From: a virus
Reading direction: 5' to 3' (one strand)
Length of the DNA stretch: 64,000 bases
Virus record (IMG/VR): IMGVR_UViG_3300025897_000012
Span: 1 to 64,000 of that record
The position numbers were made by a program, and so were the translations under genes. Below the pieces are notes generated by a model that was not told the DNA's origin, made no database searches, and worked only from the letters and a program-made list of their open reading frames with translations. Every line of letters starts with the position of its first letter. Position 1 is the first letter of the stretch. This document shows, piece after piece, positions 25,323 through 57,800 of the stretch.

Positions 25323-25964
25323 TTATTTTATACCAATTCTCATAAATCTTGTATAATTAACATGTTTACTTAGGTCTAATTCACCTTCATATAATATTTC
25401 TGATAGTGGTGCCATACTTGCAAAATCATCTAAATCGTTTACACAGTTAATATGTTCGTCTAATTCAAAGAAATTATTACTTTGTAGTATAACTAATTTA
25501 CCTGCAGGTATTTTATTATACCATTCATTAAAATTTGGAATATGTTCGCAACTAGTGTTTATAATTGTATCTGGCATATCTGTTAATTTTACTTTATTTC
25601 CTTTGTCATTTAATGTATCATATGTTAAAGGATAAGTTAAGTTAAAGATATCCAATGTTGTAGCTTTAAACTTCCATTCGTCTGTTAACCAAGGCATATT
25701 AAACTCCTCGGCTATTTCACAACAACTTTCATCTATATCAAAACTTCTAATTTTTGTAATAATTACTTTCGATTCAAATAACATAGTAGCTAATGTAGCA
25801 TACCAACCTGCACATAAAAATACTATTCCTAAATCAGGACAATGTTCTTGTACTTTTTCAACAAGCCATTCTTTACTTTTAATTTGACCATTAGATAAAC
25901 AATCTTTATTAAACTTAGGATTATCAAATACTCGATATATGCCGTTAATCAGTTGTGTTGTCAT
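25323..25964 (-). CDS. Class I methyltransferase-like protein
   Basis: A 213-residue protein with LGIVFLCAGWYATLATMLFE as a variant SAM-binding turn, IRSFDIDESCCEIAEEF as motif II with the acidic residue, and IINTSCEHIPNFNEWYNKIPAGKLVILQSNNF as the motif IV and post-III region. It belongs to a methyltransferase type I know from marine phages. It could act on the products of the glycosyltransferases in the same unit. It overlaps the end of the gene upstream by 20 bases. Confidence 0.65.
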   Translation of the reverse strand: MTTQLINGIYRVFDNPKFNKDCLSNGQIKSKEWLVEKVQEHCPDLGIVFLCAGWYATLATMLFESKVIITKIRSFDIDESCCEIAEEFNMPWLTDEWKFKATTLDIFNLTYPLTYDTLNDKGNKVKLTDMPDTIINTSCEHIPNFNEWYNKIPAGKLVILQSNNFFELDEHINCVNDLDDFASMAPLSEILYEGELDLSKHVNYTRFMRIGIK

Positions 25965-26988
25965 TAAATTTTCTTTCTAACCATTCAAAGTTGTTTATTT
26001 TTTTAAGAGCAGATGAATCATCTTTATATTTTTCTCCGTATTCTTTACCAGCAAGTGCTCCTGCAATACAGTAGTTTCCAAATGGCTTGTCTTTGCCTTT
26101 GGTACACCATTGTGTTAACCTAATTTCTGTCTCTTTATCTTCTTGTCCTTGTATAATCTTACTAGATAGTTTAACACACTCCCTAAATGCACTTTTCCAA
26201 GTGTTAAAAGGATCAGTATTAAACGTAGAAATGTTACTTACTTCGGGCATTGCTTTAAAACGCACACTAATGCTTGTGGTCATATCAGTGCTTGTAGTAT
26301 CTACATTTAAAGTTAATTTTCTTGGTAGTAATTTAACGCCGCCGTTTCCATATGTAAGTCTGTTTATAGGATTTAGACTACGCCAAACATACACAATATT
26401 CATTTCATCTTCACTAAGATAATTCATTGATGTAAAATCAAAGGTATCGTTTATACGAGCGTCTCCATCAACTACATAGAACATATGTGTTTTACATAAT
26501 TTTGCAGCTTCAATATGTGCTTGATGTATTCCTTTGACACCATGAACACGCTTTGCTGACGGTATCATGCTTAATAAATGTTTATAATTTTCTTCACAGT
26601 TTGGTTCTTTGTAGCTTATAAACACTATGTCATATTTAGATCTATATGGAGTACTAGCAACTATGTCTACTTCTTTTTTATTAATAAAAAATCTATACTG
26701 AGCTTCTCGAGGATGAATTTCTACTCTTTTAGGATATAAGCATATTCCGTCATACTTGCCAGCAGTATTTTTAAAAACATGTATAACTTTTTGATCCCAT
26801 TCTTCAGGAGTATAAGAAAAATCAAAGTCTTTTTTAACTAATGTGTCGTCCCATATAACCCAAAACATTTTTGTGACAACCATTGCCTGAGCTTCAGCAA
26901 AATTAGGAGCATATTTCAATCCAAAAAACTTATCTTTAAGTTCAGTATAGTGAGGAGTTTTTTCTCCAACAAAAATTATATCATACAT
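25945..26988 (-). CDS. Glycosyltransferase-like protein (GT-A type), paralogue 1
   Basis: A 347-residue protein. The first 110 residues form a separate N-terminal domain; the second part has YDIVFISYKEPNCEENYKHL followed by RVHGVKG and a VVDGDARI segment, in which D-G-D replaces the metal-binding DxD of GT-A enzymes. The paralogue at 34021-34956 shares the same YDVIYLSYDEPNAEKNY and VDGDNRI pattern without the extra domain. A consensus promoter ends five bases before its ATG, so its transcript should be leaderless. The sugar donor is unknown. Confidence 0.6.
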   Translation of the reverse strand: MYDIIFVGEKTPHYTELKDKFFGLKYAPNFAEAQAMVVTKMFWVIWDDTLVKKDFDFSYTPEEWDQKVIHVFKNTAGKYDGICLYPKRVEIHPREAQYRFFINKKEVDIVASTPYRSKYDIVFISYKEPNCEENYKHLLSMIPSAKRVHGVKGIHQAHIEAAKLCKTHMFYVVDGDARINDTFDFTSMNYLSEDEMNIVYVWRSLNPINRLTYGNGGVKLLPRKLTLNVDTTSTDMTTSISVRFKAMPEVSNISTFNTDPFNTWKSAFRECVKLSSKIIQGQEDKETEIRLTQWCTKGKDKPFGNYCIAGALAGKEYGEKYKDDSSALKKINNFEWLERKFNDNTTD

Positions 26989-27022: not shown

Positions 27023-28182
27023 CCATATCTTATTTCATCAAACAAATTTAAAAACAAAGGCATGTGAGATCTTTCTAAAAATTTTGCTCTATTTATTTTA
27101 CCAAATTTTCTCATTGTCTTTAGAGCAGTTTTTGTCTCTAATGAGTTTTTATTATTTTCTATTCTATTTAATTCATGACAAATTAAATCAGCACGTATAT
27201 CAAAGTCTAAATATGTATCATATTTTTCATTTATAAGATCATAGAAAGTAAAATATCCTAACTTATTAATATACTTTATTGTTTGTTGACATCCTAGTGC
27301 AATAAACGGTTTACCCATTACTATTAATTGCCATATACTGAGATTTGTAAATAAGGCATTTACTTCACTCATATAAATTCGGTGGTTGTCGGGTGCCCAA
27401 GGAGTTAATATTGTAAAAAGGCTATTAGAATGATAGTCTAACTTATCATCTTTATCAATAATTGTACCACGAGTATGCAAGTTATTCGATTCTAAAGATT
27501 TACGCAAGGCTAAGCAATTATCAGCTTTTGGAAATTCAGAATATGTATGATATAGTAGCTTAGGATTAAAAGTTTCCATATCATAGTCTTTGACTGGCAT
27601 AATCTTATTAATAGGTTCAAAGAAATTTGTGTATTTTTCGGTATTATTATTAATAATTAACTTAGCTTCTATTTGCCACCAATCAATACTGTATGACTTA
27701 TATGGTTGTAATAATTCTCTATAACTATTATTAACATCTGATGTAACAATTAGTATATTTTCTATTGGTACTTGACATCTCATAAACATTTCTGCTACAT
27801 GCCTAGTACGAATTACTTCATTATACCCCTGTAATGTCTGTCCTAGTATTAAAACTTTCATTTTTCCATCTCGTAAATGGTCTAATGTTTTATTTGGTAT
27901 ATTAATGTTTATTCCATAAGACACTTCAAATGGATAAAATACATAATCTTCTACTGTACTAAAAGGATTACCTATTACATCTCCTGTATATAACGTCATT
28001 TCACAATTATTTTTTTTCATTGTATAATAGAAACTAGAAATAACTTCAGTCATTGCATCTTTACTATCTGGCCATTTGCCATAAGGATAGGGCCAAGTGT
28101 CTTTATTAAAATTGTAACTAGTAATTCCGTTCGGTACAGGGCCGTCGTCTGTTATAATATCATAATAAAAATTAATCGACAT
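27019..28182 (-). CDS. Putative glycosyltransferase, GT-B-like, 387 aa
   Basis: The C-terminal part holds a segment around residues 280-330 with NALFTNLSIWQLIVMGKPFIALG and then QTIKYINKLGYFTFYDL, which matches the donor-site pattern of phage GT-B-like or exostosin-like proteins (a helix, a G-K/H-P-F-I turn, and L-x-x-L-G-x-x-T-F). The N-terminal part is rich in Tyr and Asn. The upstream radical-SAM gene overlaps its start by 11 bases. Function as a sugar transferase is inferred from this motif and from the neighbours. Confidence 0.5.
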   Translation of the reverse strand: MSINFYYDIITDDGPVPNGITSYNFNKDTWPYPYGKWPDSKDAMTEVISSFYYTMKKNNCEMTLYTGDVIGNPFSTVEDYVFYPFEVSYGININIPNKTLDHLRDGKMKVLILGQTLQGYNEVIRTRHVAEMFMRCQVPIENILIVTSDVNNSYRELLQPYKSYSIDWWQIEAKLIINNNTEKYTNFFEPINKIMPVKDYDMETFNPKLLYHTYSEFPKADNCLALRKSLESNNLHTRGTIIDKDDKLDYHSNSLFTILTPWAPDNHRIYMSEVNALFTNLSIWQLIVMGKPFIALGCQQTIKYINKLGYFTFYDLINEKYDTYLDFDIRADLICHELNRIENNKNSLETKTALKTMRKFGKINRAKFLERSHMPLFLNLFDEIRYG

Positions 28183-29455
28183 ATTCTTTTAACCACTGTT
28201 TCCATATTTCAGTAAACTTAGGATGAATTTTTGTAACATCTTGATTTCTAATTCTATCATATGTTAGTGTTCTTTTTACAAGGTGATTTCTATAACCCTT
28301 GTGTCTTTCAATTGTTTCAAGATCATCATACGGAGTGGTTAATCTACTTAAAATATGGTTTAATCGACTTATTCTTATTTGTTTATCAGTTAATAAAGGC
28401 AATCGTTTTTTTAAATCTTCTGCAATTTCTATTCTATACTCATAAGGAATAATGTCTAAAATTAAATCAATTGGTCCATTTACAGGATTGAATACAAAAT
28501 TTCCTCTTTTACCATGATCAATCCAGTAATCAAGTAATTTAGGCAATTCCCATGCATTGTAAACTTGTGCAGTAGCTAGAAAATGTACATGTATTTTAGG
28601 CATTGACAAGTAATGTTTATATGCTTTATCTAGTTGTTCCCAGTTTGCTCCATATCTAATATAATCGTTAGTATAACCTATACCGTCCATACTAAAGTGT
28701 AATTCAACTTGCTTAAATTTAGACAACAATGGCGTAACTTTACTCTTTATTCTACTTCCGTTAGTAGTAATATCTAAAACTAAGTGTGTGTTTCCGCTTT
28801 CTACACACCATTTTAATAGAGTATATACTCCAGGCATGAACAATGGCTCTCCGCCTGCTATTTTAATTGTGTGGAGATGTGGTATTTGTTTTTTTATACT
28901 TTCAAAACAAACTGGATCTTCTATCCATTCGTCTACATCTGTCCATTCTTCAAACATAATATCTTGTGTTTCAGGATGTGCTAACTGTTCTTTAGCTATT
29001 GTACTACTAATTGCACCAAAACACATTCTACAGCCAAAGTTACATAACCTACCAGGACGTAGATCTGACCATACTGGATATCCTGTAGTGTTTCCTTTTT
29101 CAATATCTATGTGTATAGGATCTGTTTTTTGCCTATTACTACGTATAAAATTAGTATTTTGACTTTCTCTATCAGAACCTCCACCCTCTCTATCTTGCTT
29201 GTAACAAGTTCCGCATCTACTTTCAAATTTACCCTCTAACATATTTTTTCTAACTTCTTGCATATCTTTTCCAGTCCAGATATCTTGAAGATCTTTTCCT
29301 TTAACATCATCTACGATATTATTGTTATAATCTCCTAAACAACATAAGTTTACAAATCCATTTGTAGCTACATATTGATGAGTAAACGGCATAGCACAAA
29401 ATGCAGGATTATTAGCAATTTGAGACTCAAAGTTTAAATCATAATTTTTTTTCAT
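28172..29455 (-). CDS. Radical SAM protein with N-terminal twitch domain (copy A)
   Basis: A 427-residue enzyme with an N-terminal twitch (half-SPASM) domain whose Cys are at 20, 38-39, 81 and 84 (CAMPF, LCCLGD, CGTC), then the radical-SAM core with CNFGCRMC (138, 142, 145) and IAGGEP. Radical-SAM enzymes cleave SAM with a 4Fe-4S cluster to start radical chemistry; the twitch domain binds an extra cluster. The same family occurs in phage and bacterial sugar or peptide modification loci. It is the fourth and last radical-SAM gene in a row and overlaps copy B by 17 bases. Substrate unknown. Confidence 0.85.
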   Translation of the reverse strand: MKKNYDLNFESQIANNPAFCAMPFTHQYVATNGFVNLCCLGDYNNNIVDDVKGKDLQDIWTGKDMQEVRKNMLEGKFESRCGTCYKQDREGGGSDRESQNTNFIRSNRQKTDPIHIDIEKGNTTGYPVWSDLRPGRLCNFGCRMCFGAISSTIAKEQLAHPETQDIMFEEWTDVDEWIEDPVCFESIKKQIPHLHTIKIAGGEPLFMPGVYTLLKWCVESGNTHLVLDITTNGSRIKSKVTPLLSKFKQVELHFSMDGIGYTNDYIRYGANWEQLDKAYKHYLSMPKIHVHFLATAQVYNAWELPKLLDYWIDHGKRGNFVFNPVNGPIDLILDIIPYEYRIEIAEDLKKRLPLLTDKQIRISRLNHILSRLTTPYDDLETIERHKGYRNHLVKRTLTYDRIRNQDVTKIHPKFTEIWKQWLKEYVD

Positions 29456-31682
29456 TACATTCCTCTATCATCTGTGCTACATCCGGCAATGATGTTTTCC
29501 AAGACTCGTTTCTAATTTTATCTAAACTTTCCATCCAAGGCCATAAACGGTTATACTCATTAGCATCAGGTTCTTTGTCCCATAAGTGCATTAATATACT
29601 TTTGCATCTTTGCTCAACCTTACGACAAAATGCTTTTTCATCTACACTATTATTCCATTTATCATTTATACGTTTTATAAAATTTTTATATTTTTTATCT
29701 ATATATCGTTTGTATTCTATAGGCAAGTTTTGTATATTAAGTGTAGCAGGTCCGTATAGATTATGTACAATTATAACAGGTTCAATCCGATTCCAATTTT
29801 GCTCTTTCATCCACCATTGCATTTCTGGATAATGTAAAACGTTTTGTAGACTTAAAGTAAGTGTAACACTAGCAATTAATCTTTCAAATCCTTGTTCCTT
29901 ATCAATCCTACGCATATTCTTTAGGACAGTACTAAATTTTCCTGGGTGTCGGATGTATTCAAAATGAGAATTAATACCGTCTATACTCATTCCTAAATTT
30001 ACTTGTTTAAAAGATTTCCATTGATCAAATACTTTGCTAGGAACACCTGCCATATTAGTATTATAATCTAACGTAACATTATTTGCTGTTCCTCTTTTTA
30101 TATAACAATCTAACAGTTCTCTATGTTTTAAATTTATAGTTGGCTCTCCGCCTGTAAAATAATACCTTTTAATTGTATCTAAATTATTCATAATATGCGA
30201 CCATAACTTTGTAAAAGTTTGATCTGGTTCAAAAAGATCAGGAACAGTATTTGTACCATCAGGTAAAGTTTCAATCTTAACTGTGTTATGCCCTCTATAA
30301 TTAAAAACTCCTGAAGGCTGTAACTTTACCCAATCATCATACCATAAATTACTATCAGTTGGTCCACAGCTTCTACACTTTAAATTACATTTATTACCAA
30401 ATCTTAAATCCATATATGTTATAGGGAATTCTTCATCTTTTATGGTTCCGTCTTTTTTAGTAAGTGTAACTGCTTTGTGATATACATCTTCATATAATTT
30501 TCTGGTCCACTGGCGTTTACTTCCTATCCCGTTTTGTTCTTCATTCGTACACAGTTTACATACTTCTGGATCAATGCCATTCAGCATTTCTTGTCTTAGT
30601 TTCTTCCATACAGGTGCATTTCTATGCTGTGTAACGTCATCTTTTCCTGTAAGCACAGTACCATCTTCTTTGTATACTGTACCATAAGGATCATTAATCA
30701 TTTGACAACACATGCGAATACTTCCATCAGCGTTTGTTGCTAAGTGATTCCATGCAATAGGACAAAATGCCTTCCATCTATCTTTGTTTACTAACATATT
30801 CTCCTGTGTTTTTTCTATTTTTTCTACAGGTTTATCTAATCTTAGTTTTAACAATGTTCTTATTTTTCTTCCTCGAGGGGTATCTATACTAGGAAGATCT
30901 TTCTTTAGCCATAGTGCTTCAAGAACTTCTTGATCTTTGTCATACTCTGCAACAATCGCCATAACCTCAACCGGACAATCTGGGTGTAAAACCATTTCAA
31001 TTCTTTCTTGTGAAGTACGAACAATATCTAAATCAAAAGACATAGGTTTTTGAGGCCACGTAAAATCAAAAGAAAAATTATTATTTTGTTTTATCCATTT
31101 GTCCATAGTTTTCTGGAACTTCTTTCTATCCAAAGTTGGAAATATATGCAGTAGCTGATCTGTTAATTTTACAGCAGAAATATTTAACTCGTCTAAGTTT
31201 ATAATATATGACTTTTTAAAATAATCAGTGTAATGACTTGTATTATCATGATCTCTTTTCATATTGTCTGAATGTCTTATCATCCAATGTTCAGTAAGGT
31301 TTTCTTGCTCTTTTAATTTTTGATATCCTAATTGTGCCCAGTAATTGTAATTACGAGTAATAACAAAACAGATAACAGTCATACTACTATCCCAGTATTC
31401 TTTAATAATGTTAGGATTATAACTGTGATAATGATCCTTGTACAGATCATACTTGTTAGGATCGTTTTCACCTTCATATATATGTTCTTTTTCGACTAAA
31501 GAATATTTTATTTTACAAAATGACTTCCATCTATTTGTGCCTATAGGCTGTGCTTCTTTTCTAGGTATTTTGTTAATTTCAGGTACACATTCGCTTAACA
31601 AACTAGTAATCATTTCGCCACCAGTTCCAGCAGAATATAATAAAAGATAATTATGATTGTTGTTGGAAGAATTTAATTTCAT
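29439..31682 (-). CDS. Radical SAM twitch protein with extra N-terminal domain (copy B)
   Basis: A 747-residue fusion. Residues 1 to about 295 form an extra domain that starts with LLLYSAGTGGEMITSLL, which resembles a P-loop of sulfotransferase-like proteins. Residues 303-378 are a twitch domain (C307, C325-326, C375, C378), and the core follows with CNLKCRSC (432, 436, 439) and TGGEP. The core is close to copy A, but the fusion is absent there. The N-terminal part may choose or modify the substrate. The start overlaps copy C by 32 bases, which implies coupled translation. Confidence 0.8.
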   Translation of the reverse strand: MKLNSSNNNHNYLLLYSAGTGGEMITSLLSECVPEINKIPRKEAQPIGTNRWKSFCKIKYSLVEKEHIYEGENDPNKYDLYKDHYHSYNPNIIKEYWDSSMTVICFVITRNYNYWAQLGYQKLKEQENLTEHWMIRHSDNMKRDHDNTSHYTDYFKKSYIINLDELNISAVKLTDQLLHIFPTLDRKKFQKTMDKWIKQNNNFSFDFTWPQKPMSFDLDIVRTSQERIEMVLHPDCPVEVMAIVAEYDKDQEVLEALWLKKDLPSIDTPRGRKIRTLLKLRLDKPVEKIEKTQENMLVNKDRWKAFCPIAWNHLATNADGSIRMCCQMINDPYGTVYKEDGTVLTGKDDVTQHRNAPVWKKLRQEMLNGIDPEVCKLCTNEEQNGIGSKRQWTRKLYEDVYHKAVTLTKKDGTIKDEEFPITYMDLRFGNKCNLKCRSCGPTDSNLWYDDWVKLQPSGVFNYRGHNTVKIETLPDGTNTVPDLFEPDQTFTKLWSHIMNNLDTIKRYYFTGGEPTINLKHRELLDCYIKRGTANNVTLDYNTNMAGVPSKVFDQWKSFKQVNLGMSIDGINSHFEYIRHPGKFSTVLKNMRRIDKEQGFERLIASVTLTLSLQNVLHYPEMQWWMKEQNWNRIEPVIIVHNLYGPATLNIQNLPIEYKRYIDKKYKNFIKRINDKWNNSVDEKAFCRKVEQRCKSILMHLWDKEPDANEYNRLWPWMESLDKIRNESWKTSLPDVAQMIEECNEKKL

Positions 31683-33048
31683 TATCGCTATATCCTACTA
31701 ATTCACTACTATTGTCTATTCCTCTAATAGGAACTAAACTGGTAGCGCCAATTTGTCTTCCGTTTGCACCGTTGTCAAAAATTCCAAGTTCTATAATTTT
31801 TTCATTAAATGATTGAGCTCTTTCTAACATACCCGGTGGTGTCATTAATTTAATCTCTAACCAAAAGTCATCATTTACACTTTTATGGTGATCAATTATA
31901 ATTTTACAATTTTCAATAAATCTTTGTTCGTTTCCTTTGTATAAATCCATACTACCAAAATGGGCACTCATATTTATACTGTTAATATACTGACATGCTT
32001 CTTTCCAATATTTTGTACTTCTACTTCCATTAGTAGTAACAAGTATCCATTGATCTCGTTCCTTTAAATGTTTTAGTATATCTAAAAACTTTGGATTCAT
32101 TGTTGGCTCTCCGCCCCCAAAGTTCCATCTTATACTAGCACCTTTACTCCATGTATCTATTGCTTTATCTATAGTTTCAATAATTTTATTATATGAGTGA
32201 TGTTCTTCTGTATTATTATGAACACTTGGCCAACAGTAGTCACAATCGTAATTACAACGTCTAGTAATGTCCCATAAAATTTGATACTCAATTGGAAAAT
32301 TCATTTCTATTCCAACAGGAATAGTATCAAATGCTATGTGTGGATTTTTTACTGCATCTTGTAATTGTCCTTTGTCTTGTCCATCATACCCATATTTTGT
32401 TACATTTAAATTTTCTAAAGCTAACTCGTCTTTAGCTTTACTTAAAATTACATCGGCTCCACAACCACAACTTGTTAACGGACATGTAGTCCATTTTTTA
32501 GGAGCTTCCCATCCTGTAAAAATACTACCTTGTAATCCCCATACTTTAGTATCTTTTTGTGCTTTCCACTGCCAAGTTGCTGGATCTTTCATAAACTGTT
32601 TGTAAGGATCGTCAAAAAATATTTTTTCTAACCTTCCAATTTCTGCCATTAATTTATGTTGCTGTTCACTGTTCTTGTAATCATGCTTGGGCATAGGCCA
32701 ACCGTTTTCAGTATTAGCATTTATCCAATCTTTACGTTTATCACTGCCGTCTGCTCCTATAATAGATTCTCTATATTCTTGCCATTGCCTATCTATTAAC
32801 TTTGGATCTTGATTCGTATAGGTTGTTACACGCTGATCATGAACTTTACCGTAATGAGATGCACTTGCACAATTTGCAATCCATACATTACCATCATAAT
32901 CTATGTATAAACTTCGCACTCCAGCACTACACTTCCAATCTTTCCATTTGTTTAAGTTATTTGCAATTACTTCATCAACACTAAAAAGACTATACTGATT
33001 ATTTTTGTTATAAATTCTAAGTTGTTTATTGTCTGTAGGTTGATCCAC
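31651..33048 (-). CDS. Radical SAM protein with SPASM-like domain at the N-terminus (copy C)
   Basis: A 465-residue protein. The core lies in the C-terminal half, with CNYDCDYC (265, 269, 272) and FGGGEP. The N-terminal half has Cys at 40, 60, 189, 194 and 196. The spacings C40-C60 (20) and C189-C194-C196 (5 and 2) equal those of the C-terminal SPASM-like domain of copy D (C260-C280, C304-C309-C311), so this domain appears to have been moved to the front, with about 105 extra residues between. It starts at GTG directly after the copy D stop, with AAGGAG nine bases upstream. The order of domains is unusual for the family. Confidence 0.8.
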   Translation of the reverse strand: MDQPTDNKQLRIYNKNNQYSLFSVDEVIANNLNKWKDWKCSAGVRSLYIDYDGNVWIANCASASHYGKVHDQRVTTYTNQDPKLIDRQWQEYRESIIGADGSDKRKDWINANTENGWPMPKHDYKNSEQQHKLMAEIGRLEKIFFDDPYKQFMKDPATWQWKAQKDTKVWGLQGSIFTGWEAPKKWTTCPLTSCGCGADVILSKAKDELALENLNVTKYGYDGQDKGQLQDAVKNPHIAFDTIPVGIEMNFPIEYQILWDITRRCNYDCDYCWPSVHNNTEEHHSYNKIIETIDKAIDTWSKGASIRWNFGGGEPTMNPKFLDILKHLKERDQWILVTTNGSRSTKYWKEACQYINSINMSAHFGSMDLYKGNEQRFIENCKIIIDHHKSVNDDFWLEIKLMTPPGMLERAQSFNEKIIELGIFDNGANGRQIGATSLVPIRGIDNSSELVGYSDNEIKFFQQQS

Positions 33049-34017
33049 TTATACACGCTCCTTCTTACTCATTATATCAAAGTTACAATGACAATAGCTT
33101 TTATTGCATATAACAGGATCAATAGGCCATGCTATGTTATCAGGATCTTTCATATTTCCTAAAGAACCACCAACACGGCACCAACCAATCATTACAGTTC
33201 CATCAAAGTCTACAACAATCTGTTCAACGCCACTATAACACTTCCAGCCCTCCCAGTTGTTAGTATTTTCAGCAATAAATCTATGTGCGGCACTATTTTT
33301 TGTTTTACCTGTTACTGTATCAATCATATCCATACTGCCTCTATAAAGTTTAAAGTTGTTGCTTTCTTCAGTATACTTTATATGTTTTCCAAAATCTTGC
33401 CATTGCCTATCAATAACATCAAGTTGGTCTTGTGTGTAAGGAAATCGTTCATTACCAAAGTCGATTACAAGCGGTTGCAACGCTAAACTAAAATTTTCAG
33501 CTTCTTTAACTAATCTTTTTGTAAGATTTACTCCATTATTAAATCTATCTTTATCAGTATGCATCATAATGTTTACATGAGTTCTACAAACCTTTGACAT
33601 AATTTTTACTACTTCTAAAAAGTGGCCTGCTTCTGCACTTTCAGGATGAAAACTTAAACAAACATGATCAAAATTATTTTTATTCTTTTCCCACCAACGA
33701 ATAGTTCTACTAGCGTTACTAATAAATCCTATATCGTGTCCTTTAGACTTAATGTACTGAGCACACTTTATAAAATCTTTCCATAAAGTTACTTCGCCTC
33801 CAGTAAACTCAAAATAAACTTTCCTTGGAGCATAATGTGTTTCACAAGCATCAATAAATTTTTTAATTACTTTAAAATCTTGCCAACCAAAACTACCATT
33901 ATTTAAAATAGGAGGACAGTAACTACAGGTATAGTTACACATGTTTCCTAAATTCCAGTTTACAACAACCCAGTCTTTAGCTTCTTTATGATGATGGTCT
34001 AAGATATTATATTGCAT
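33049..34017 (-). CDS. Radical SAM protein with C-terminal SPASM-like domain (copy D)
   Basis: A 322-residue protein with a standard N-terminal radical-SAM core: CNYTCSYC (27, 31, 34), FTGGEVTLW (71-79) and a strand pattern of a partial TIM barrel. The C-terminal part carries five Cys (260, 280, 304, 309, 311) that would bind an auxiliary cluster. It is the first of four radical-SAM genes in the unit and follows a glycosyltransferase gene by three bases. Such enzymes can modify peptides or sugars. I found no short precursor peptide nearby, so a sugar or protein substrate is the simpler guess. Confidence 0.85.
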   Translation of the reverse strand: MQYNILDHHHKEAKDWVVVNWNLGNMCNYTCSYCPPILNNGSFGWQDFKVIKKFIDACETHYAPRKVYFEFTGGEVTLWKDFIKCAQYIKSKGHDIGFISNASRTIRWWEKNKNNFDHVCLSFHPESAEAGHFLEVVKIMSKVCRTHVNIMMHTDKDRFNNGVNLTKRLVKEAENFSLALQPLVIDFGNERFPYTQDQLDVIDRQWQDFGKHIKYTEESNNFKLYRGSMDMIDTVTGKTKNSAAHRFIAENTNNWEGWKCYSGVEQIVVDFDGTVMIGWCRVGGSLGNMKDPDNIAWPIDPVICNKSYCHCNFDIMSKKERV

Positions 34018-34020
34018 ATA

Positions 34021-34956
34021 TTATTTCTTTCCTAATCCGCTTATTCCTCTGTGTCTATCAACACGATCAGGTTGTCGGTAAATTGTTTTAAAGAATTTAC
34101 TAGCACCTTGAGAGAACGGTTCTTTGTCTATAGGTATTTGAAGTTCATTAATTAATTTTGTTCCGTAATTTGTAGATAATTCTAAAATTTTATCTTCAGG
34201 TATGTCTGCAAATTCTTCTTCCCATAAATTATTTAAATATTTAAAATCTCGTACATTAATGTAATTCCAATCTGTACACATTGTTTTATATACTGCGGCT
34301 CTAGTTCCTAATATAGCCCAGTTTCCGTTTTCTACATCTGCGCCAACCATTGCCCAAATATACATCCAATGTAGACATCTCCAATGAAGATTTAAATATT
34401 CTTCTTTGTTTGGTTTTATACCTTGATTAAGAGATAATTTAACTCCTTCTCTAAACCCAGCTCTCCATGCTTGTTGAGGAGTTTCGTTATTATATACATC
34501 TGAAAAACAACTATTCATTTGTACATATTTTAAATCCCAACAAAAATCTACTTGAGCAGCTATGTTATTTGGATCTGCATTTTCGTGTGTCCGCATATTT
34601 AATACATGTTGTTTAGGCCAACATTTTAAGCCGCCGTTTCCATATAGTAATCCGTTAATAGTATTTTTTCCTGCCCAGCTTATTACAGAATTTTCTAACT
34701 CAACATCATCATCAAAACTAATTTCTTCTTTTAAAAAATCATTTTTAATTCTGTTGTCGCCGTCTACTGTAATAAAGCGATCAGTTTCTGATAATTCTGC
34801 ACAGGCTTTGTGTGCCGCGTCACTACCGTCTACCCCGTGTACACGTTTTGCCCACGGAACTTTAGTTAAGAGATCTGCATAGTTCTTCTCAGCATTAGGT
34901 TCATCATAACTTAGATAAATTACGTCATAATCTAGTACTTTAAATTTATTAGACAT
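34021..34956 (-). CDS. Glycosyltransferase-like protein (GT-A type), paralogue 2
   Basis: A 311-residue protein with DYDVIYLSYDEPNAEKNYADLL, AKRVHGVDG and TVDGDNRI (Asp65-x-Asp67 as a likely metal site), the same order as the protein at 25945-26988. Later segments NTINGLLYGNGGLKCWP and CFSDVYNNETPQQAWRAGFREGVKL are also shared. The two genes flank the radical-SAM block and probably come from one duplication. Sugar transfer is the inferred activity; donor and acceptor are unknown. Confidence 0.6.
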   Translation of the reverse strand: MSNKFKVLDYDVIYLSYDEPNAEKNYADLLTKVPWAKRVHGVDGSDAAHKACAELSETDRFITVDGDNRIKNDFLKEEISFDDDVELENSVISWAGKNTINGLLYGNGGLKCWPKQHVLNMRTHENADPNNIAAQVDFCWDLKYVQMNSCFSDVYNNETPQQAWRAGFREGVKLSLNQGIKPNKEEYLNLHWRCLHWMYIWAMVGADVENGNWAILGTRAAVYKTMCTDWNYINVRDFKYLNNLWEEEFADIPEDKILELSTNYGTKLINELQIPIDKEPFSQGASKFFKTIYRQPDRVDRHRGISGLGKK

Positions 34957-45792: not shown

Positions 45793-45800
45793 TATTTATC
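45793..45800 (-). promoter_or_regulatory. Late promoter motif (GATAAATA, minus strand)
   Basis: GATAAATACA on the minus strand, about 20 bases before the ATG at 45773. It lies inside the end of the giant gene. Confidence 0.55.
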
Positions 45801-48800
45801 GAGGTAGGTCAACACTTGTAGCTCGTAAGAATCTACCTATATCAGTATCTGCTTGGCTAAGTGCTATACCTGGATCTGTCCATTGTTTTCCTTGTTTTCT
45901 TATTATAATAACCTTTTGATTTTCGCCTGGCGTAGTTAATAACGATAATGTACTACCTAAAATTGAAAATTCTGCTGGTAATATTTCGTCACCTTCTGGG
46001 CTATCTTGGGCTATACTGCTTGTTTTTACACCATTTATAGTAGTTTCAAACTTATAAGAAGAAATTGAATTTTTTCTTAATCTCTTTCCTGCTACAAATA
46101 CATCAAACTCGTTAACTCCGCCTGTTCCTGGTGTAAAGTCTAAATCAAACGTAGAACTTGTGCCGTCTGCTGTAAATACTGTACTAATTGTTTCATCTTT
46201 ATATGGTATTGATGCATTAATACTTTGATCATATACTTCTGTACCACTTGTATGCAAATCATTTACTCCTGTACCTAACGTACCTCTTTGTAACTGTTTA
46301 AGTAAATTTCCTTCTTTAATTCTATACTCAATTCTTTCACCGTTAACAAATATAATTCCTGGATACTCTGATCCTGCTGTTGGATCAGTTATTCCACTAG
46401 CGTCAACTAATTCTATTGTTTTATCGTAAGGTGTTAAATCTTTTCCAAGAATATAGTTTTTATCTCCATCTATTCTCTTGTAATGTGTTCTGTTAAGCAT
46501 ATCCTTAAATTGTCTAAATCCAAATTTAGTAATTACTGTTGGATTACCAAAATGTAATACTTCTATTCTATCACCTTGGTTTAAAGGACTTACTAATTTA
46601 ATAAAATTCTTGTCTGTAGTAACACTATAGTCTACATCTGCAAGTAAAAGTTTGTTATTTAATATTACCCAAACATATTTAGAATCAACTGCTGGACTTC
46701 TTAATTTAAATAATCCTGCACGTAAATTATTTAAGAAATAGTATTCAGGTGTACCTTTTGTAATTGGTGTATTCTCTTGGACTTGATAAGATTCTCTTTC
46801 AAATTTTTGAGCTGTACTATTACTAAACTGATAAACTTTCATTCTAGTTCCAATTGGCCTATCTACTTCAAAAGAACAAATAGTTGGCGTTGGAACAAAT
46901 ACGTTTGATGAATCACCTTGTTGTTCAAAGTAACCAAATCTATATTGACTTTCAGTAATAATGTATACTAATAACGTATCTCCAGCTACACCAATGTTAT
47001 CTGAAAGTTTTACTGTGTTGCCTTTTTGTTGATCTAAAGGCGTATCACTATCAAATGCTTCAGCTGATGTAAATGTCCAGTCTGTTGCATACTCTAACAT
47101 TCTACCATTTAGGTAAACTTGAATCTGTGAACTTTGTACTAATGCAATAGGTATTTGCCAAAGGTCTAATTTATAATCTCTTGCTGACGAAACCGTAAAC
47201 TGCTGATTAAACCCAGAATGTAAAATATCATCTCCTATTTGTACAAGTGTGTGTATGCCTGCAGGACCGTATGAGAAAGGTGCTTGACTTAATACAAGTG
47301 TATCGTTTCCTTGTGGAGTTGTAGCAATAAATTCATCTACTACTACTTGACTAAATGAATCTAATTCAGATCCGTCACCAATAAACAATGCAAATCTAAC
47401 AACGTCTCCTGCCTTTAACGGAGAAGCTAATACTAGTTCAACATTGTTTGGATGCGATCCTGTACTTTTTACAAATACAGATTCTAATTTTTTACCATCA
47501 CATGTTGCAATACCTTGAACATTATCAGTCCATCGTACATTTGTTTCAAAGCTATTTGAACTGCCATCACTTACAAAACTATCTATATCTAAAATTTGCA
47601 AGCCTGCTACTTCAACAAGTGTTAAATTAATTTTAGAACCTTCTGCTGGTGCAACTTCAAAGTCTACAGTTTTATTAACATAGTTTACTGTATAACCTAA
47701 AGTTGAATCATCTGTAGTAGGTTCAAGTATATCAGAGCCTACTTTTACAAATAATGAACTTCCAGTAAATGGCGTCTTTCCTAAATCAAACGATTTAGTA
47801 GATCCATCACCATTATAATTTCTATTTACAACTATACTACTTCCGCCAACTGGTCTTTCAAAAACACTTATATCAACAGAGTCTAAAACTTGTCCTGGAA
47901 CGATTTCTTCAGGACCTTTGCTTGTAGTAGGAGTAACAAACCCGTCACCGTCTACAGTAATATCTTCTGACTTTAAACCTGTAGCTGAATTGTAAGCAAG
48001 TGTGCCGCCAACTATTGAAGTATCATAACTTTCAGGGTCGTTAATAAAACTACCATCACTTGTTTCTTTTCTTACAATAATTGTATCATCAACTTGAGTT
48101 GGTACTTCTAACTCTTGTAATTCTATAACTGTAGTTGTGCCGTCACCAGTAATGCTTTGCATTATTGCATTAGGATTTTTTACTAGTGCTGAATCGTATC
48201 CTGGTTCTGGTGCCCAGTTTGGATCGTCTAATCTTATACCGTTTCGATATAAATTATAAACTACTCCATTTTCTAAAGGCTTGCTTAACGTAATACTTAT
48301 TGTACTGCCATCAAGTTTGAATACTTCATCTTCGTATGTAGTATCGTATGTATCCCAGGTATCAGTATACCAAGGAGCTGAGTCCCAACCAGTGTTACCT
48401 CCAAATTCAAAACTTTTTACTTCTACTCCGCCGTAATCAATACCGTCCATAACTTGTGATAAATCATTACCAAACTGTCCAGCAATTGGATTGTATGATA
48501 AGTTAACTCTATCTGCTGCTGTTAGATATTCAATTGGTTTTTTATATTTTATTACTATAGAAGAATTACTTGCTGGTGGTTTAGTAAATGTAACTCTACC
48601 AAAATATCTATCATATCCTTTTGTAGTATCTTTTATATTTTCATATGTATATTCACTTTGTAAAGAAAGTTCACCTGCAATAGTTATTTCTACAGTATTT
48701 GTTTTTAAGTCCATTGGAAAGATTAAATCAAATACATAAGAACTACCTGATCCAACAAATGTCTGCGATTCACTTAGTTTAGTTACTACAAATTTTCCTA

Positions 48801-51800
48801 TAACTCTGTCAAACTTAACAGTAGTGTGCATTCCTCTAACTAACCCGTCACCTAATATTGCAACTAATTTTGCAGGTTTTCCGCCTTCTCTAATTGAACC
48901 ATTTATTTCTACTACTGGAGGATTTAAATAACCAGTTCCTTTATTAGTAACTTCAATAGAAGCTATCTTGCCGCCTTGACCTAATCTTGCAATAGCAGTA
49001 GCGCCTGTGCCAGTTTCCGATGTACTTAAATCTTGTCCAACAAAATTAATTTCTGGCGGCTGTGTATATCCACTTCCAGCATCTGCTATTTCTACACGAT
49101 TAATTTTATAAGATAAATTATCTACCCAATTTTTATTTGGATATGTTGTAAGGTCTGCATCAGTTCCTACAATAGCATTGTCAATAACTTTAACAGATAA
49201 TGGCGTAATTGATTTTGTTTCATTATCCCATCTTGGAGGCAAATCAAAATCTGTAACTAAGTTAGCAGATACATTAAGTTGATTATAATCACTAATATAT
49301 TCACGTAATTTAGATTTAAACGGTTTTACCTCTTTTAGGTATTCTTCGTAACTAGGTAAGTTATCATTTTGGAAAGTTATCTTTTTACTTAGATCACCTA
49401 CATTGTGTCTTGCTTTAATAAAGCTAGTTTTAAATGCCCAATCTACTAAACTTTGTTCAGTAAAGACATACTTTAAACTTGATAAAAATAAATTATTGTA
49501 TTCTACTGCTAGTTCATCAACGAATAAGTTATCTCTTAACGCCTCAAGAATAATCCTTGTTTCTTTAACCGGCTGTACATCGTAAACTTTAATATCATAA
49601 CTTGCACTATCAAAGCCTGAACCAACACTGGTGTTAAACAGTGAAGGAAGGAATTTAATTGTTCCGTTTTGTCTACCAACTGTTTTATAATTTATTGTGT
49701 AATCAATTGAATCAGCATTATCAATTTTTTCTAATAGTAGCCAACCGCCTGAACCAACATTTGCTATTTTAACTATATCTCCTGTACTATCATCTAACGA
49801 TTCTAATTGATAACTTGAATCAATTAAATAATTAATATCAGTAAATTCGTTATATCCTGTATCGTACCAATCTATATAATTCCAAAATAAAGATACATCA
49901 AACACTTGGCTAAGTTTTCTTACCCATAAAGTATTGTTTATATTTCTTTCGTAAACTGACCATTTACCTGATAGCGTACTATCACTTTTTACAAGAACTG
50001 CAAAAGGCCTAACACTTAAAGTTGTTAAAGTTGAACTATATCCGCTTCCTTGACTATTAACTGTTGCTGAGGTAACCGTGCCAACACTATTAATTGTTAA
50101 TGTGATATCTGCAGCTGTTTCGTATCTCCCATTAATAATAACTTTAGGAATAACTTTATAACCTCTACCAGGGTCTGTAATAGTAACCCTAACTATTTTT
50201 CCATCAATTATTACTGGCGTTAATACTGCTTGTTTAACTTTTGCAGTACCTACAAATTCTAAATCTTCAAAAGTATCTACAACTAAATCATATGTATTGT
50301 TTGAAGCAGGCGGTATTTCTTGTTTTGAAAGTAAAGGCGTAATAATTTTATCGTCAACAATTAAGTTTTCTTTTAAGACTCCGTTAACTCTATCTATAAC
50401 TTGCTTTAATGCTTCTGTTCTATTAACAAACCAACTTTGTCTTGGATCATTAAGAATGCCATATTTTTCTTTAGCTGATAAATTTGGATCAGGAACTATT
50501 CTACCTGCATCGTCATATCCAATTAAACTATCAAACCATTTGCGTTCTATATCTGCATTTGGTTTACTTGTATCTAAGCCTGCTGTATATAATTGATATT
50601 GATTATGAATATTAATATCTTGATTTTCAATAGTCCAGTATTGTATGCTAAGAGCAACTTCTTTATCTTTAAGAAGACTTTCACAATTATGTAAAACAAA
50701 ACTTGTAGGACTTATGAAGTTAATAAATCTATATCCCATGCCTGCAGGATCATCTATGTACCGTGCAACATTAAATGAACTTAGTTTTCTTGATTCAATA
50801 TTAGGTGCGGTAATTTTTCCTTTAACCCAGTAAAAATATTTGTTTGAAAATGTTTGTGCTATATCATCGTATACTCTTTTAGTTGAATAAATTGTATCAT
50901 CATATTTTGTTGTACCAGAGATGCCTTCAGTTACTCCTTCAGTAGTTGCTGCTGTTGCATTCCATTCTGATGGTAATAATGTAGTTTCAATCCATTCGTA
51001 TACGTCTATACTATTTCCTGTAAATTGTGTGTTCCAATTATTAACACTAAAAATAGTATTATTTTGATAAGCATTTAAAAATTTAGCTGTTGATAAATCC
51101 CACCAAAGTTCGCCAACTTGCTCTTGTCCCCAAACTTCTGATTTGTTAGTGTTTACATCTGAAGTTCCAACTGTGTATACTGCTGGATCATAATGCAACT
51201 TATATGAAAGTTCTTGTTCAGCTATACCAGGAATTTTTCCTTGTATAGGATCTAAGTAATCTATATAACTAATTAACTTATTTTCTTTTGTATTATACAA
51301 TAACACTTTTTTAATTTTTGCTACATCAACAGTATCTTTAGGTAATGAATAAGTTGACCAAATATTCTTGTTAGTATCTTTTCTAAAATCTATTACTGCA
51401 CCGTTTTCGCCTTCAAAAACTGTATGTTTTGGTAGTCCTACATATACATGACTATTGTTTGTATATAAATTTAAACCAAAGTCCCTAATACTATTATTAG
51501 GATTAGTATTTGCTACAGCTTGTGTAGAGTCTGCTAGTTCGTTATAAGCAATAGTTTGCCCGTAAACTAAATTTCCATCAATATTCTCATAAAGATAAAC
51601 AACTCCAGTATCTATAAACTTCTTAGCAAAAGTAGTAAAGTTATTATCCCAAGTTGTTTGTGGTATACCATTTAAAGAATCAAATGTTGTCTTAGAATCT
51701 GAATCTCCATTTTTTGCTGTAATAGCTAGTACATTATTATCAAACGAAAGTTTAGTACCAAATAATTCTACCTTTTCGTTTCCTCTACTGAATAATGTTT

Positions 51801-54800
51801 GTGATAATTCAAATAATCCAGTAGTTGTATTTTTCTTCATTACAAATACTCGACCTTGATCAAGTTGTATACGTGACGGGTCAGCTTCACTACGTTGTGT
51901 TTCTGCAAAAGGTTCACTTATTGCAATCATAGTACCGTCATTGTTGATAGCTATAGCTTCGCCCCATAGCGTCTTATTAATTGACCAAATATCATCAGCA
52001 TCAGTTGCAGTAGAGAAGCTGGTCTCTAGTATACTTTGAACTCTTTGATAATTTCCATTCTTATTTCTGTATACAACTACTTGATTGTCTGTTTCTGTTA
52101 AGTATTTGGCGACTCCTATAAGTACTTCACCATCATCAGAAACATCTACTTTACTAAAGTTATATATTCCTTCTTGGTCTTGAACTGTACTAGGATCAGC
52201 ACTATCAAATATTGGTAGTATTTCTGTATTATTTGGTACATAACCTAAATAATCTATAGGCTGTGTTTGTTGTGTCCAGTTTGCTCCATTAAATATTCCT
52301 GGAGATAAGTTTGTATTAGCTTTATAAATGCCTCTGTCAAGGTAAATTATATCATTAGTCTGATAACTTACTAATGAAGAATATGTTCCTTGGAAATTTT
52401 TATCTTTAGCTAGTTCCCAATCCCAGACATTGCTATCAGCATCTGTTCCATGCTTTATAAAATAAGTTCGCCCTGGCAAGAAAGTACTGTCATCTAACCT
52501 TTTGTCTAATCTCTTAAAATCACCACGTCGTGAATAACTTTCGCCTGCATGTATAAACAATCTATATAAATCATTTTTCTTTGCACTTTTTATTTCAGAT
52601 CCTAAGTAAAAGTCTTCTATTGCTTCTGGTACAATATAACTATTTAAAAGACCAAATCGATTAGTAGTACCTGTACCAAAGACCGAATACATTCCTTGAT
52701 TTTCATAATCACTTGCTGTTGCTCCGTCTACAGCCGGAATACTATAAACATTTATCCAATCGTTATTTCCTGCTGAAGGTAAATTAGCTACAACAGGCAC
52801 ACCTGAAACTACGTTTGCTTCATAGAACCAATATTCAGTATCAGTCATTACAGATGTTGTAGGTAATAAAATATCAGCTCCTGAATCAACTACTATTAAT
52901 TTTCCAATTCCTTCAGAAGCTAGTCCTAATGATTTTGCTTGTACTTCGCCCATCACACGATCAACTTGATATATTGGACTAGGATCTGTTGGTGTTCCTA
53001 AAAATTCTATTTCAGCATTATTATTAAACAAAGATCCGTTTGAGAAATTACCAACTACATCTTTTACAAATATCGTTGCATTTAATGCATCTCTTTGATA
53101 AAAAGTTACTTCTGCTGTTGCTCCTGTAGTTATATCTCTAACAGTATCTCCAACTCTAGGTTCAAAAGGTTCTCCGAATAAGTTAAACTTAGTAAATCCA
53201 AATTTAATATATCCGTCCCATAAGTCATGGACAGTTAATTGTTTGTTAGTTTGTGCATATGATAACCCAATAACAGCAGGGTCGTTGCTAGTACCTGACG
53301 CATACCTTGCTAATGAAGGAATAAACATATTAAAGTTACTGCCATTTGATAACGTATCAGTTAGTGCTTTAGGAGCTCTTAATACAAAGTACGGACTTAG
53401 GAAAGCAGTAGTTGTGCCGCCTGCACCTGGAAGTCCTTGATATGTTAATGTTTCTAAATAACTTGCTAAAGTATCTTGACTTGAAATAGTTGTTGTTTCA
53501 TAGTCTCTTGAATTATAGTAATAATTAGAAGGTGCCGAACTATCAGTAATAGCTTCTTGGTATACTAAACCTTTACCTTGATCTGATGTTGTTGTAAAAA
53601 TATTATATCCGCCCGGAACAGTAATCATAAAATAGCCACCGTAGTAACTACTTACATCTAATGCTTCTGAAGGTGCAGATGTAGTATATTCTCCAACAAA
53701 GTCACCGTTTGAAAGGAACAGACTATCTGTAGAGTCAAAACTACCTGTAACGCTATTAATGTATAATCCAAGGCTTCCGTCAACTTCATAAGAATATGCT
53801 ACTGTACCTGATCCTGTTTGAGTTTGAACTGTATCGCCAATAGCTGGTTGATTTGTAAATGCATTAATATTAAGAATTAAATCAATCTTCATTTGTACTT
53901 GATGTGTACCGCTAAAGAAAGTAGAACTTAATTCTGACATACCGCCTCCTGGAAACGGCTCTTTACTTGTATAAGTTGTTTGCTCTTGATTTGCTATTGT
54001 TTTTGTATTCCACTTTAACTTAATTTCATCATTTATATCAAGGCCAGCGTATTGTAACTTTGGTACTTTAAGTAGCACGTGATCAACATTAATTTCAGTA
54101 AAAGGATACTTACCTGTTAGTATTACATCTACTTGTTCCGAAGCTTGTGTTGTATTACCAATTGATTCAATTTGTTGGACTACGCTACCAAAACTAGTAA
54201 ATTGGATACTAGCAGATTGTGGTACAATTGATGTAGTTGATTTCCATAATTTATTATTATAAGTTACAATATCGTCTTGTACATACGCGATGCTAGGATC
54301 ATAATTTGCTTTATATCTTGTTTTTACGTTACTTGCGTTAGGCGAACCAACAATTAAATATTTTCCATCTTCTGTTAAAGATACAGATGCACCAAATTTC
54401 TGTAAATTAGGCGGAGTTGTTAATATTGTATGCTTTGCAAGATCAAAGTCTTGTCCTGCTATATGTGTTTCTGATACTGTATAAAAATTATTGTTAAACT
54501 GTACTAAATCACCTACAGTATATGTAGCACCTGTATAAAATCTTTTATATGTAAATGTTGTATCTGTTGGAGCTGCAATAACTTGTGATAATACAAAATT
54601 TCCGTTTGACGAACCTCTTGTGTAAATATAAACTTTTCCATCATTTTCGTCTGGTGATCCTACTGCTAATACTGTATTACTTTTATTTGCAGACATAGAT
54701 ATTGCAAAGGTTTCGTTGGAAATGCTTTGGCCACTACTTAGATCTTGTAATTTTGTAAATGCTTGCGTATTTTCATATACAGTCCATTTACTGTCTTGGC

Positions 54801-57800
54801 CTTTATCTACCCAAAATTTTGATTTAATATTTGCTAATTTTTGTGCAATAGTATTTAGATTAATTAACGAGTCTGTTCTAACAGATACAAGTTTACTTAA
54901 CCTTCCTATACATTCATCTATATCTTCAACTTTGTCTGAACTTTCAAATGTAATTTTTTCTAAACTTATAGACTTTACTTTAAAAAATGCACCAACAGCA
55001 GCTTTAGCAGTCTGAGCAGTTGCAAATGAACTATCTGCTGTATCTAGTGTTGTAGAAATTAAATCATAAACTCCAAATATATCTCCTACATTAATATCCT
55101 GCGGAGTTGAATTTAATGATACAGTAAATTCAGTATCACCTCCTGTTACTTTTTCTACTCTTAAATCTGTATCATCATGTCTATATATGTTCCAGGTAAG
55201 TTTATCATTACCTACCCAGATAAGATCACCCCGATTGCAATTTTTAAAATCAATGTTTAAAATTGAATTAAAATCTTCAACAATAAATTTTACATCATCT
55301 GGATTTACATACCCACTATCTTTTGCATATCCATCTTCAGAAGCAATATATTTTTTTGGAAAAGGTGCATGTGTATAATTTTTTGGTTTTAGATAAGTTT
55401 CGAACGGAGGTATTCTATAAACTAAATCTGTTTCTTCACCAGTAACACTCTGTACTAATTCAATAGGCTGAGGTGAAAGTCTAAATTTGCTTTCGTCTAG
55501 TTTAAATTCTACTTCATCATATCCTGCAGAGGCGCCGTACTGGCCTCGTTTAATTGCCCACTCTTCATAAAATTCTAAACTATCTTTATCAGCATTACCT
55601 AAAACATCAAATAACTTAGTAAGAGCATTTTTTGTACCTTTATCTTGAATAAATCCTTGATAAAATTTATACTGACTAACATCGTCGTTAATAATGTTTT
55701 CTAAATACTTACGTTTTTGATAACCAATAAGATGTTGTGCTAACCTTTGTTGCTCGCTATCAAAATTATCGCTGTCTAAATCGTAAAAGTCTGCAAACTG
55801 ATTTGTTTTATATTCAAAGTTAGCAGTTAATCCAGACTTAGGTTTAGAGTCTAATCTTGTCCATTGTGTTGTAATAAATGATTCAGTTCCAGGAATTTTA
55901 CTATTTGCTGTATAAAAGAATTCTTTGTGCTTTACAATATCACCTATAAAGTAATCTTTGTTTGATTCCCAATCTGATATTGTTGCTTGGTCATATACAA
56001 ATCCTTCTATATTTAAACTGCCATCCCAATTTGTTGTTCTATATCCTAAAACTTTTATTCTTTCTTGCCTGTACCCTGGCTCAGGGTCGTATATAATATC
56101 GTTAAATACAGTCTTGTTATCTAATAAAACAACGTGTTCTTTTTGTACACAAGGTAACTTTATAGAAAAGATTCCGTCTGCCGAGCTTTTTGGTCTTAGA
56201 ATAAATTCATTTGGATCTTGTCTATCAACTTGTATAAAATCAGAAGTTAATTTTTGTCCGTCAACTTTAAGTAAGGTATATCCAAAAAATCCGTCAAATA
56301 TATTATCAACAACGCTATAGGTTGTTCTAAATTTTAGTTGATTTGCACCTGGACTTAAACTAATTAAAGTTCCTTCTGCCCAATTATGAAGCGTCCAAAA
56401 AGCAAACTCCTTTGTTGAAGTTTCCCAGTCATCTACTACACTAGCACTTGTTCTAAAATTATCAAATACAAATCCAATAGACTCTAAATACTTTCCATAC
56501 CCTTGAATAAAGTCACATACATCTTGTATTGTTGGAAGTATACTTCCATATGGTAATTCTAAAGGTGCAAATGTTGCAAACTCTCTTCGAAGCGTAATTT
56601 CTCTACCACCATTAACAGGTAGCTTAGGTACACTTGCAAAATTAGATTCATCAAAAGTATCACTAGCTAAATGATTTTTTGTTACTCGATAATATTTTCC
56701 TGAATGTTCTACTATAGCACCTACTGTATAAGTACGCCCTCCTTCAAACTCTAAGAATGGTTCTGAAGTTCCGCCAATAGTTATTACAGGATCTCTATCT
56801 CTTTCAAAATGAGGGAAATATTTAAACGTTGTCGAAGTATCATCATAACCTTTAATTTTATAACCGCTTGCTCTTCTTTCAATTATTAATCCACTATAGG
56901 AAACTGTTTTAATTGGAGAACTTTTGTTAAGAAATATTGAATAATTCTCGTCAGGTACAAATACGTTTCCTTCATTAAGTGGTGTCCTACTATCTAAAAT
57001 AAGTTTAAATTTATTTTTATCTGTATATCCGCCAACTTTAAATCCTATTTGATTAGTAATTGCTTTAATATTTTCTTTATATTCAGTATATGATGTAACA
57101 ACACTAGATGCCATATATCCTGCAATATAATTTACAAGTCCTGATGTAAAAGTTTGTGTGCTATCTAAATGTGTATTAGGAAAAATTATATCTTTTAACT
57201 TAATTTGATTATTTTGTGTTTTATATACTATTTGTTTAGTTAAGTTTCTTACTTGATTAACCCTATCAAATCCTGTAGCTAATACTTTTGAAGGCTGACT
57301 TAGTGTCCAAGCAGTAATTAAGCTAAATGGATACTCACTACTTCTTCTCCATGCTGTTTCAACTGGTGCTTCGTCTCCAAATACAAACGAATCTGTTAAT
57401 TTAGATGAATCAAAACTCTGTGCATATCCTGAATCGTTTGGACTTAATAATTGTCCGTTTTCATTAACAGGTAAATGTGTCAATAATCCTGGTCTTTTAT
57501 ATTTGTTTAAAATTTTTATTTTTTTGTTAGGCTGTCTTACAACACCATTTTGTAAATCAGTCCATAAAACTAAGTTATCTCTTGTATAAGGTGCCGGTCC
57601 ATATTGTTTTTCCCACCAATCTGGTTTTATACTAAAACCTAACATTTCCCAAGGATGAGTATGCGGCCTGTCTGTATCATATGCTTCTCTATAAGCTGCT
57701 CTCCAAAATCCTGGTAATGAAACACCATTAGGAGATACTGCTGAAGAATAATTAAACGTCCAAGAATTTGTTCTATTATGAAAATCGTTTAATGTATAAT

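Follow-up and report, generated by a model that had tools for sequence, protein, structure and literature searches.

Does a radical-SAM protein of a viral gene cassette carry ahead of its core the auxiliary cysteine module that its neighbor carries behind it, and, if so, how was the order changed? The locus that raises this question lies within a stretch of 64,000 nucleotides (here denoted the window), which comes from a virus record 79,754 bases long. Four radical-SAM genes, D, C, B and A, form an operon-like run on the minus strand of the window (Table 1). An earlier note had proposed that a SPASM-like domain, C-terminal in copy D, was relocated to the N-terminus of copy C, by circular permutation or by fusion of a D-type C-terminus with a new core.

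Table 1. Radical-SAM genes of the window and the parts of their products.
Feature	Position	Strand	Basis
Copy D, unpermuted relative (core, then twitch-like module), 322 aa	33049..34017	-	ORF; model
D radical-SAM core, residues ~10-202, Cys 27/31/34	33412..33990	-	PF04055 22-124
D C-terminal twitch-like module, residues ~225-318, Cys 260/280/304/309/311	33064..33345	-	profile comparison
Copy C, permuted radical-SAM protein (quite likely), 465 aa	31651..33048	-	ORF; PF04055 E 7e-15
C N-terminal twitch-like module, residues ~8-206, Cys 40/60/189/194/196	32431..33027	-	hhalign to D module
Insertion within C module, residues ~64-169, ~107 aa, lineage-specific	32542..32859	-	alignment, Cys2-Cys3 distance
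C linker, old C-terminus to old N-terminus, residues ~207-250	32299..32430	-	alignment and doubled-profile test
C radical-SAM core, residues ~251-465, CX3CX2C 265/269/272, GGE 312-314	31654..32298	-	PF04055 261-387
Copy B, N-terminal extension with nucleotide-binding-like motif, then N_Twi_rSAM	29439..31682	-	NF033640 E 1.6e-97, 304-738
Copy A, N_Twi_rSAM protein (N-terminal SPASM, then core)	28172..29455	-	NF033640 E 2e-90; PF13186 at 20-85

Modules of copies C and D

The open reading frames of C and D are real. C starts with a GTG codon at 33048, immediately past the stop codon of D, and in three related loci (L001-L003) this start is matched by ATG or GTG followed by identical first residues. 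The PF04055 match (E 7e-15) and the CX3CX2C and GGE motifs place C in the radical SAM superfamily. The cysteine spacings that had been read from the two sequences, 20 and then 5 and 2 residues, before the core in C and after it in D, are exact. The flanks agree as well, with WKC opening and ILSK or IMSK closing both cysteine regions, and C stops where the SPASM-like region of D would start: the end of C corresponds to D column 202 and the start of its module to D column 225, placing the new ends of C within the short core-module linker of D. The C module has the pattern CX19C...CX4CXC. Its second and third cysteines are 129 residues apart in the window protein and 22 in compact members, indicating that the former carries an insertion, which compact relatives (for example L100 and L121) lack.

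Comparing C with D by BLASTP yielded two separate, crossed matches, one joining the cores (E 9e-12) and one joining C 23-71 to D 243-291 (E 8e-9, 37% identity). The N-terminal part of C scored 108 in local alignment to D, whereas none of 1000 shuffles scored above 50. Profile comparison by hhalign matched the N-terminal module of C to the C-terminal module of D over 87 columns (probability 99.8, E 8e-28), with homology spanning the whole module, including the stretch ahead of the first cysteine, and the two cores end to end (E 3e-43). Chance as the source of the cysteine likeness is ruled out by the shuffles and by the module E-value. When C was aligned to a single D profile, two crossed alignments were again obtained, whereas a doubled D profile gave one unbroken alignment of 291 columns (E 6e-56, versus 1e-38 for the core alone). 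A single unbroken alignment to a doubled profile is the usual signature of circular permutation. We are nearly certain that the modules of C and D are homologous and stand in swapped order.

The family of module-first proteins

The earlier note had suggested searching for other proteins with a SPASM-like domain followed by the core. We scanned viral contigs and genome contigs and then searched all ORFs in 288 loci with HMMs. This detected 366 core-plus-module ORFs (redundant), 133 module-first and 233 core-first; among the latter, 167 have a D-like core and 66 a C-like core, and these 66 are here denoted E. After removal of redundancy, the search returned 75 module-first C proteins, from viral contigs and Bdellovibrionota MAGs. 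In the 63 C proteins that were aligned, Cys 40, 189, 194 and 196, the core cysteines and the CX3CX2C and GGE motifs are invariant. Position 60 is a cysteine in 55 of the 63, and the other 8 have one two residues earlier, such that all five auxiliary cysteines are present in every protein. The five module cysteines of D are likewise invariant (43 of 43 aligned D proteins). From the last module cysteine to the first core cysteine the C family shows a median of 60 residues. Thus, the swapped order is the property of a conserved family. In three loci (L232, L233 and L239) the C protein is short (312-322 aa), and a separate ORF that matches a C-like core comes after it. A tblastn search of a phage record collection with C, compact C and D gave no match.

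These data bear on the possibility that the N-terminal cysteines of C resemble those of D by chance or through a gene-calling artefact, such as a wrong start or a frameshift between D and C. The GTG start of C and the adjoining of the two genes are what such an error would predict. However, the same order is found in independent frames in 75 non-redundant proteins and is kept where other genes part D from C or where D is absent, and with the module-module E-value of 8e-28 we give this explanation practically no weight.

The earlier note had also called permuted radical-SAM proteins rare. This holds for permutation of this particular module, but the C family is broad and not the oddity of one phage. 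The statement is further qualified by an N-terminal auxiliary domain that already has a family name, N_Twi_rSAM (NF033640), and that occurs twice in the same operon, in copies A and B; the order of SPASM-like domain and then core is therefore not confined to C, A and B having it by way of a different domain. In each of eight Bdellovibrionota MAGs with a C gene, NF033640 members above the cut-off are present as well. Copy B of the window is a single ORF whose N-terminal part has an SAGTGGE-like motif, and its equivalent at L003:6394-8756 is split into two ORFs.

We considered whether C is itself a member of N_Twi_rSAM, like A and B. It has the same order of parts, its core can be aligned to theirs and the genes adjoin. 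Yet C scores 39 bits against NF033640, in the core only, where the cut-off is 170; the N-terminal domains of C and N_Twi cannot be aligned (hhalign probability 2.6), and the cysteine pattern differs. Membership of C in this family is highly improbable.

Origin of the swapped order

Two routes could lead to the order seen in C: permutation of one gene, or fusion of a D-like C-terminal module ahead of another radical-SAM core no longer joined to a module of its own, an event that the neighborhood of D and C would have eased. A doubled E profile aligned to C over 277 columns (E 6e-65), and D aligned colinearly to the E profile without doubling (283 columns). A single branch of the core tree sets the module-first proteins apart, with moderate support for C as one group (45 in a wide set and 93 in a smaller set). 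In the tree of the short twitch module C falls into 3 to 4 pieces; here the AU test did not reject C as one clade (p-AU 0.35), C together with D (p-AU 0.30) or C together with E.

Fusion is compatible with that last tree, through the grouping of C with D, and D lies directly upstream of C in many loci. On the other hand, in 57 of 67 proteins the C module matches E with a higher score than it does D, the count is the same for the C core, and within C the twitch and core distances correlate with r 0.93, a value reached in 0 of 2000 permutations, as expected if both modules share one history. The scores nearer E and the correlation within C favor permutation of an E-like gene over the attachment of a new core to the tail of D, as far as sequence comparison can tell, and we regard fusion as unlikely. 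Of the two routes in the earlier note, circular permutation is thus the one borne out, by the doubled-profile test, the conserved cut point, the conserved cysteines and the position of C on one side of the core-tree branch, and fusion is the less favored.

SPASM/twitch domains have their canonical place C-terminal to the core. The direction of change is taken from this place, the tree being unrooted: an ancestral order of core and then module would have changed once to module and then core, a linker now joining the old ends, and the new ends arising in the short segment that had connected core and module. The swap probably arose once. That one ancestral gene was permuted, rather than paralogous halves joined, we consider probable, and the wider reading, in which the C family is a circular permutation of the D and E architecture and acts in the joint pathway proposed below, quite likely.

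Gene neighborhood, possible role and known relatives

Glycosyltransferase- and methyltransferase-like genes surround the D-C-B-A run, and beyond them lie genes for tail fibres, the tail and the baseplate wedge. Among the tail and baseplate genes, one ORF at window positions 45796-61347 (minus strand) encodes 5183 aa. Across loci, D lies upstream of C and shares its strand, and in most cases the two genes touch or overlap. D was found in the fetched stretch for 49 of the 75 C proteins; its absence from some loci indicates that it is not an obligate partner of C. N_Twi genes follow C in many viral loci, and the arrangement D-C-N-N is common in a marine group. Extra genes separate D from C at L002:4117-5001 and L003:3734-5001, one encoding an FkbM methyltransferase and the others having no Pfam match. 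On Bdellovibrionota MAG contigs L132, L133 and L134, C stands beside tandem N_Twi genes, and L133 has two C genes in tandem. L132 and L133 are long contigs, with two N_Twi genes next to C; judged by eye from sequence, the other neighbors there look chromosomal, presumably glycine cleavage T and H, biotin carboxylase and carboxyltransferase.

Two genes of the window, 34021-34956 and 25945-26988, encode related glycosyltransferase-like (GT-like) proteins (34% identity) with a VDGD motif. Neither matched an NCBIfam family, and in the Pfam scan the GT-like neighbors matched none, apart from a weak VirK match for 34021-34956 only. In other loci D is fused behind a region of the 34021 type (L110:2672-4936, L112:2126-4942 and L118:2330-4936). 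The Pfam radical-SAM core match falls at residues 464-564 of 754 in L110 and 578-678 of 868 in L118, and the L112 fusion is known from the 34021-type alignment only. That alignment, of the window gene, its relatives and the three fusions, has 45 invariant columns. The protein L116:1405-4230 (941 aa), which is outside this alignment, has the same motif and was taken by eye as the same fusion. In a Bacteriovoracaceae MAG, L138:5333-7264 (minus strand, 643 aa, core match 348-449) carries D behind a different N-terminal part, which by eye we take to be family 2 glycosyltransferase-like; it had no such Pfam match.

From its invariant core motifs, C is predicted to be an active enzyme that cleaves SAM reductively on the CX3CX2C cluster. 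Its N-terminal module would hold one auxiliary [4Fe-4S] cluster and would dock onto the core in about the way that the D module does. The conserved neighbors suggest that C probably works with D, the two N_Twi radical-SAM proteins and glycosyltransferase-, sulfotransferase- and methyltransferase-like proteins, within what would be a phage host-recognition cluster. The target might be a surface glycan or else a tail protein that bears glycans, the link to glycans being argued from the fusion of D to the GT-like region. Such tailoring of glycans or tail proteins is a tentative assignment. Slightly less plausible is direct modification of a ribosomal peptide or tail protein by C and D, through RiPP- or anSME-like chemistry, with the sugar genes as unrelated neighbors. 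It is consistent with the tail genes that flank the cluster and with SkfB, SuiB, anSME and EpeE, which come close behind BlsE among the structural matches of D; against it, no precursor peptide was identified, and some phages have D fused to the GT-like gene of the 34021 type. The fullest form of the glycan or tail-protein reading is equally doubtful: a natural permutation fixed across many phages and Bdellovibrionota, with C, D and the two N_Twi proteins making up a pathway of several radical-SAM enzymes dedicated to the modification of surface glycans or tail proteins. What phage cassettes with many radical-SAM genes do can be approached through the gene neighborhoods D-C and C-N_Twi, both of which are conserved.

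Similar cassettes are described for pelagimyophages, where the host recognition cluster has radical-SAM cassettes, tail fibres and glycosyltransferases between structural genes (PMC7029224). The window is alike in having radical-SAM genes, glycosyltransferases and tail fibres between structural genes; the passages of that report that we compared treat the cassettes only, and not domain order. The N_Twi_rSAM proteins share with C the auxiliary domain ahead of the core and the cassette itself, but differ in an N-terminal domain that cannot be aligned with that of C, which lies far under their cut-off.

Among matches listed from a full-text literature search for permuted or N-terminal twitch radical-SAM proteins there was no such paper. 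Hardly any of the members scanned had a match to a named Pfam domain in the module of C and D (PF13186 gave weak matches in 3 of 63 C proteins), and the NCBIfam matches listed for both proteins fall in the core. The viperin family NF038283 was rejected for C (61.9 bits in the core only, versus a cut-off of 180). The C family, nameless in the libraries searched, is a genuine and conserved variant, with permuted order, of an enzyme class already known.

That class, the SPASM/twitch enzymes (BlsE, SkfB, EpeE, BtrN and anSME), unites a radical-SAM core and a domain for an auxiliary cluster. It is characterized by four or more conserved auxiliary cysteines in a separate domain, and C has five in 63 of 63 proteins; the domain also lies C-terminal to the core, as it does in D and does not in C. 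The D model (pLDDT 94.5) aligns full length, to BlsE over 14-322 (Z 16.7, 267 residues), with SkfB, anSME, EpeE, SuiB and viperin so close behind that the rank among them says little. The C model (pLDDT 90.4) aligns to BlsE over the core only (C 252-465 with BlsE 18-215), the outcome that sequential aligners should give with a permuted protein. C differs from these enzymes in its cysteine pattern and its near lack of PF13186 matches, and in the module that precedes the core. With its unpermuted relative D encoded next door, C provides a natural test of whether a SPASM/twitch auxiliary-cluster domain must follow the core. The family has ordinary parts in an unusual order.
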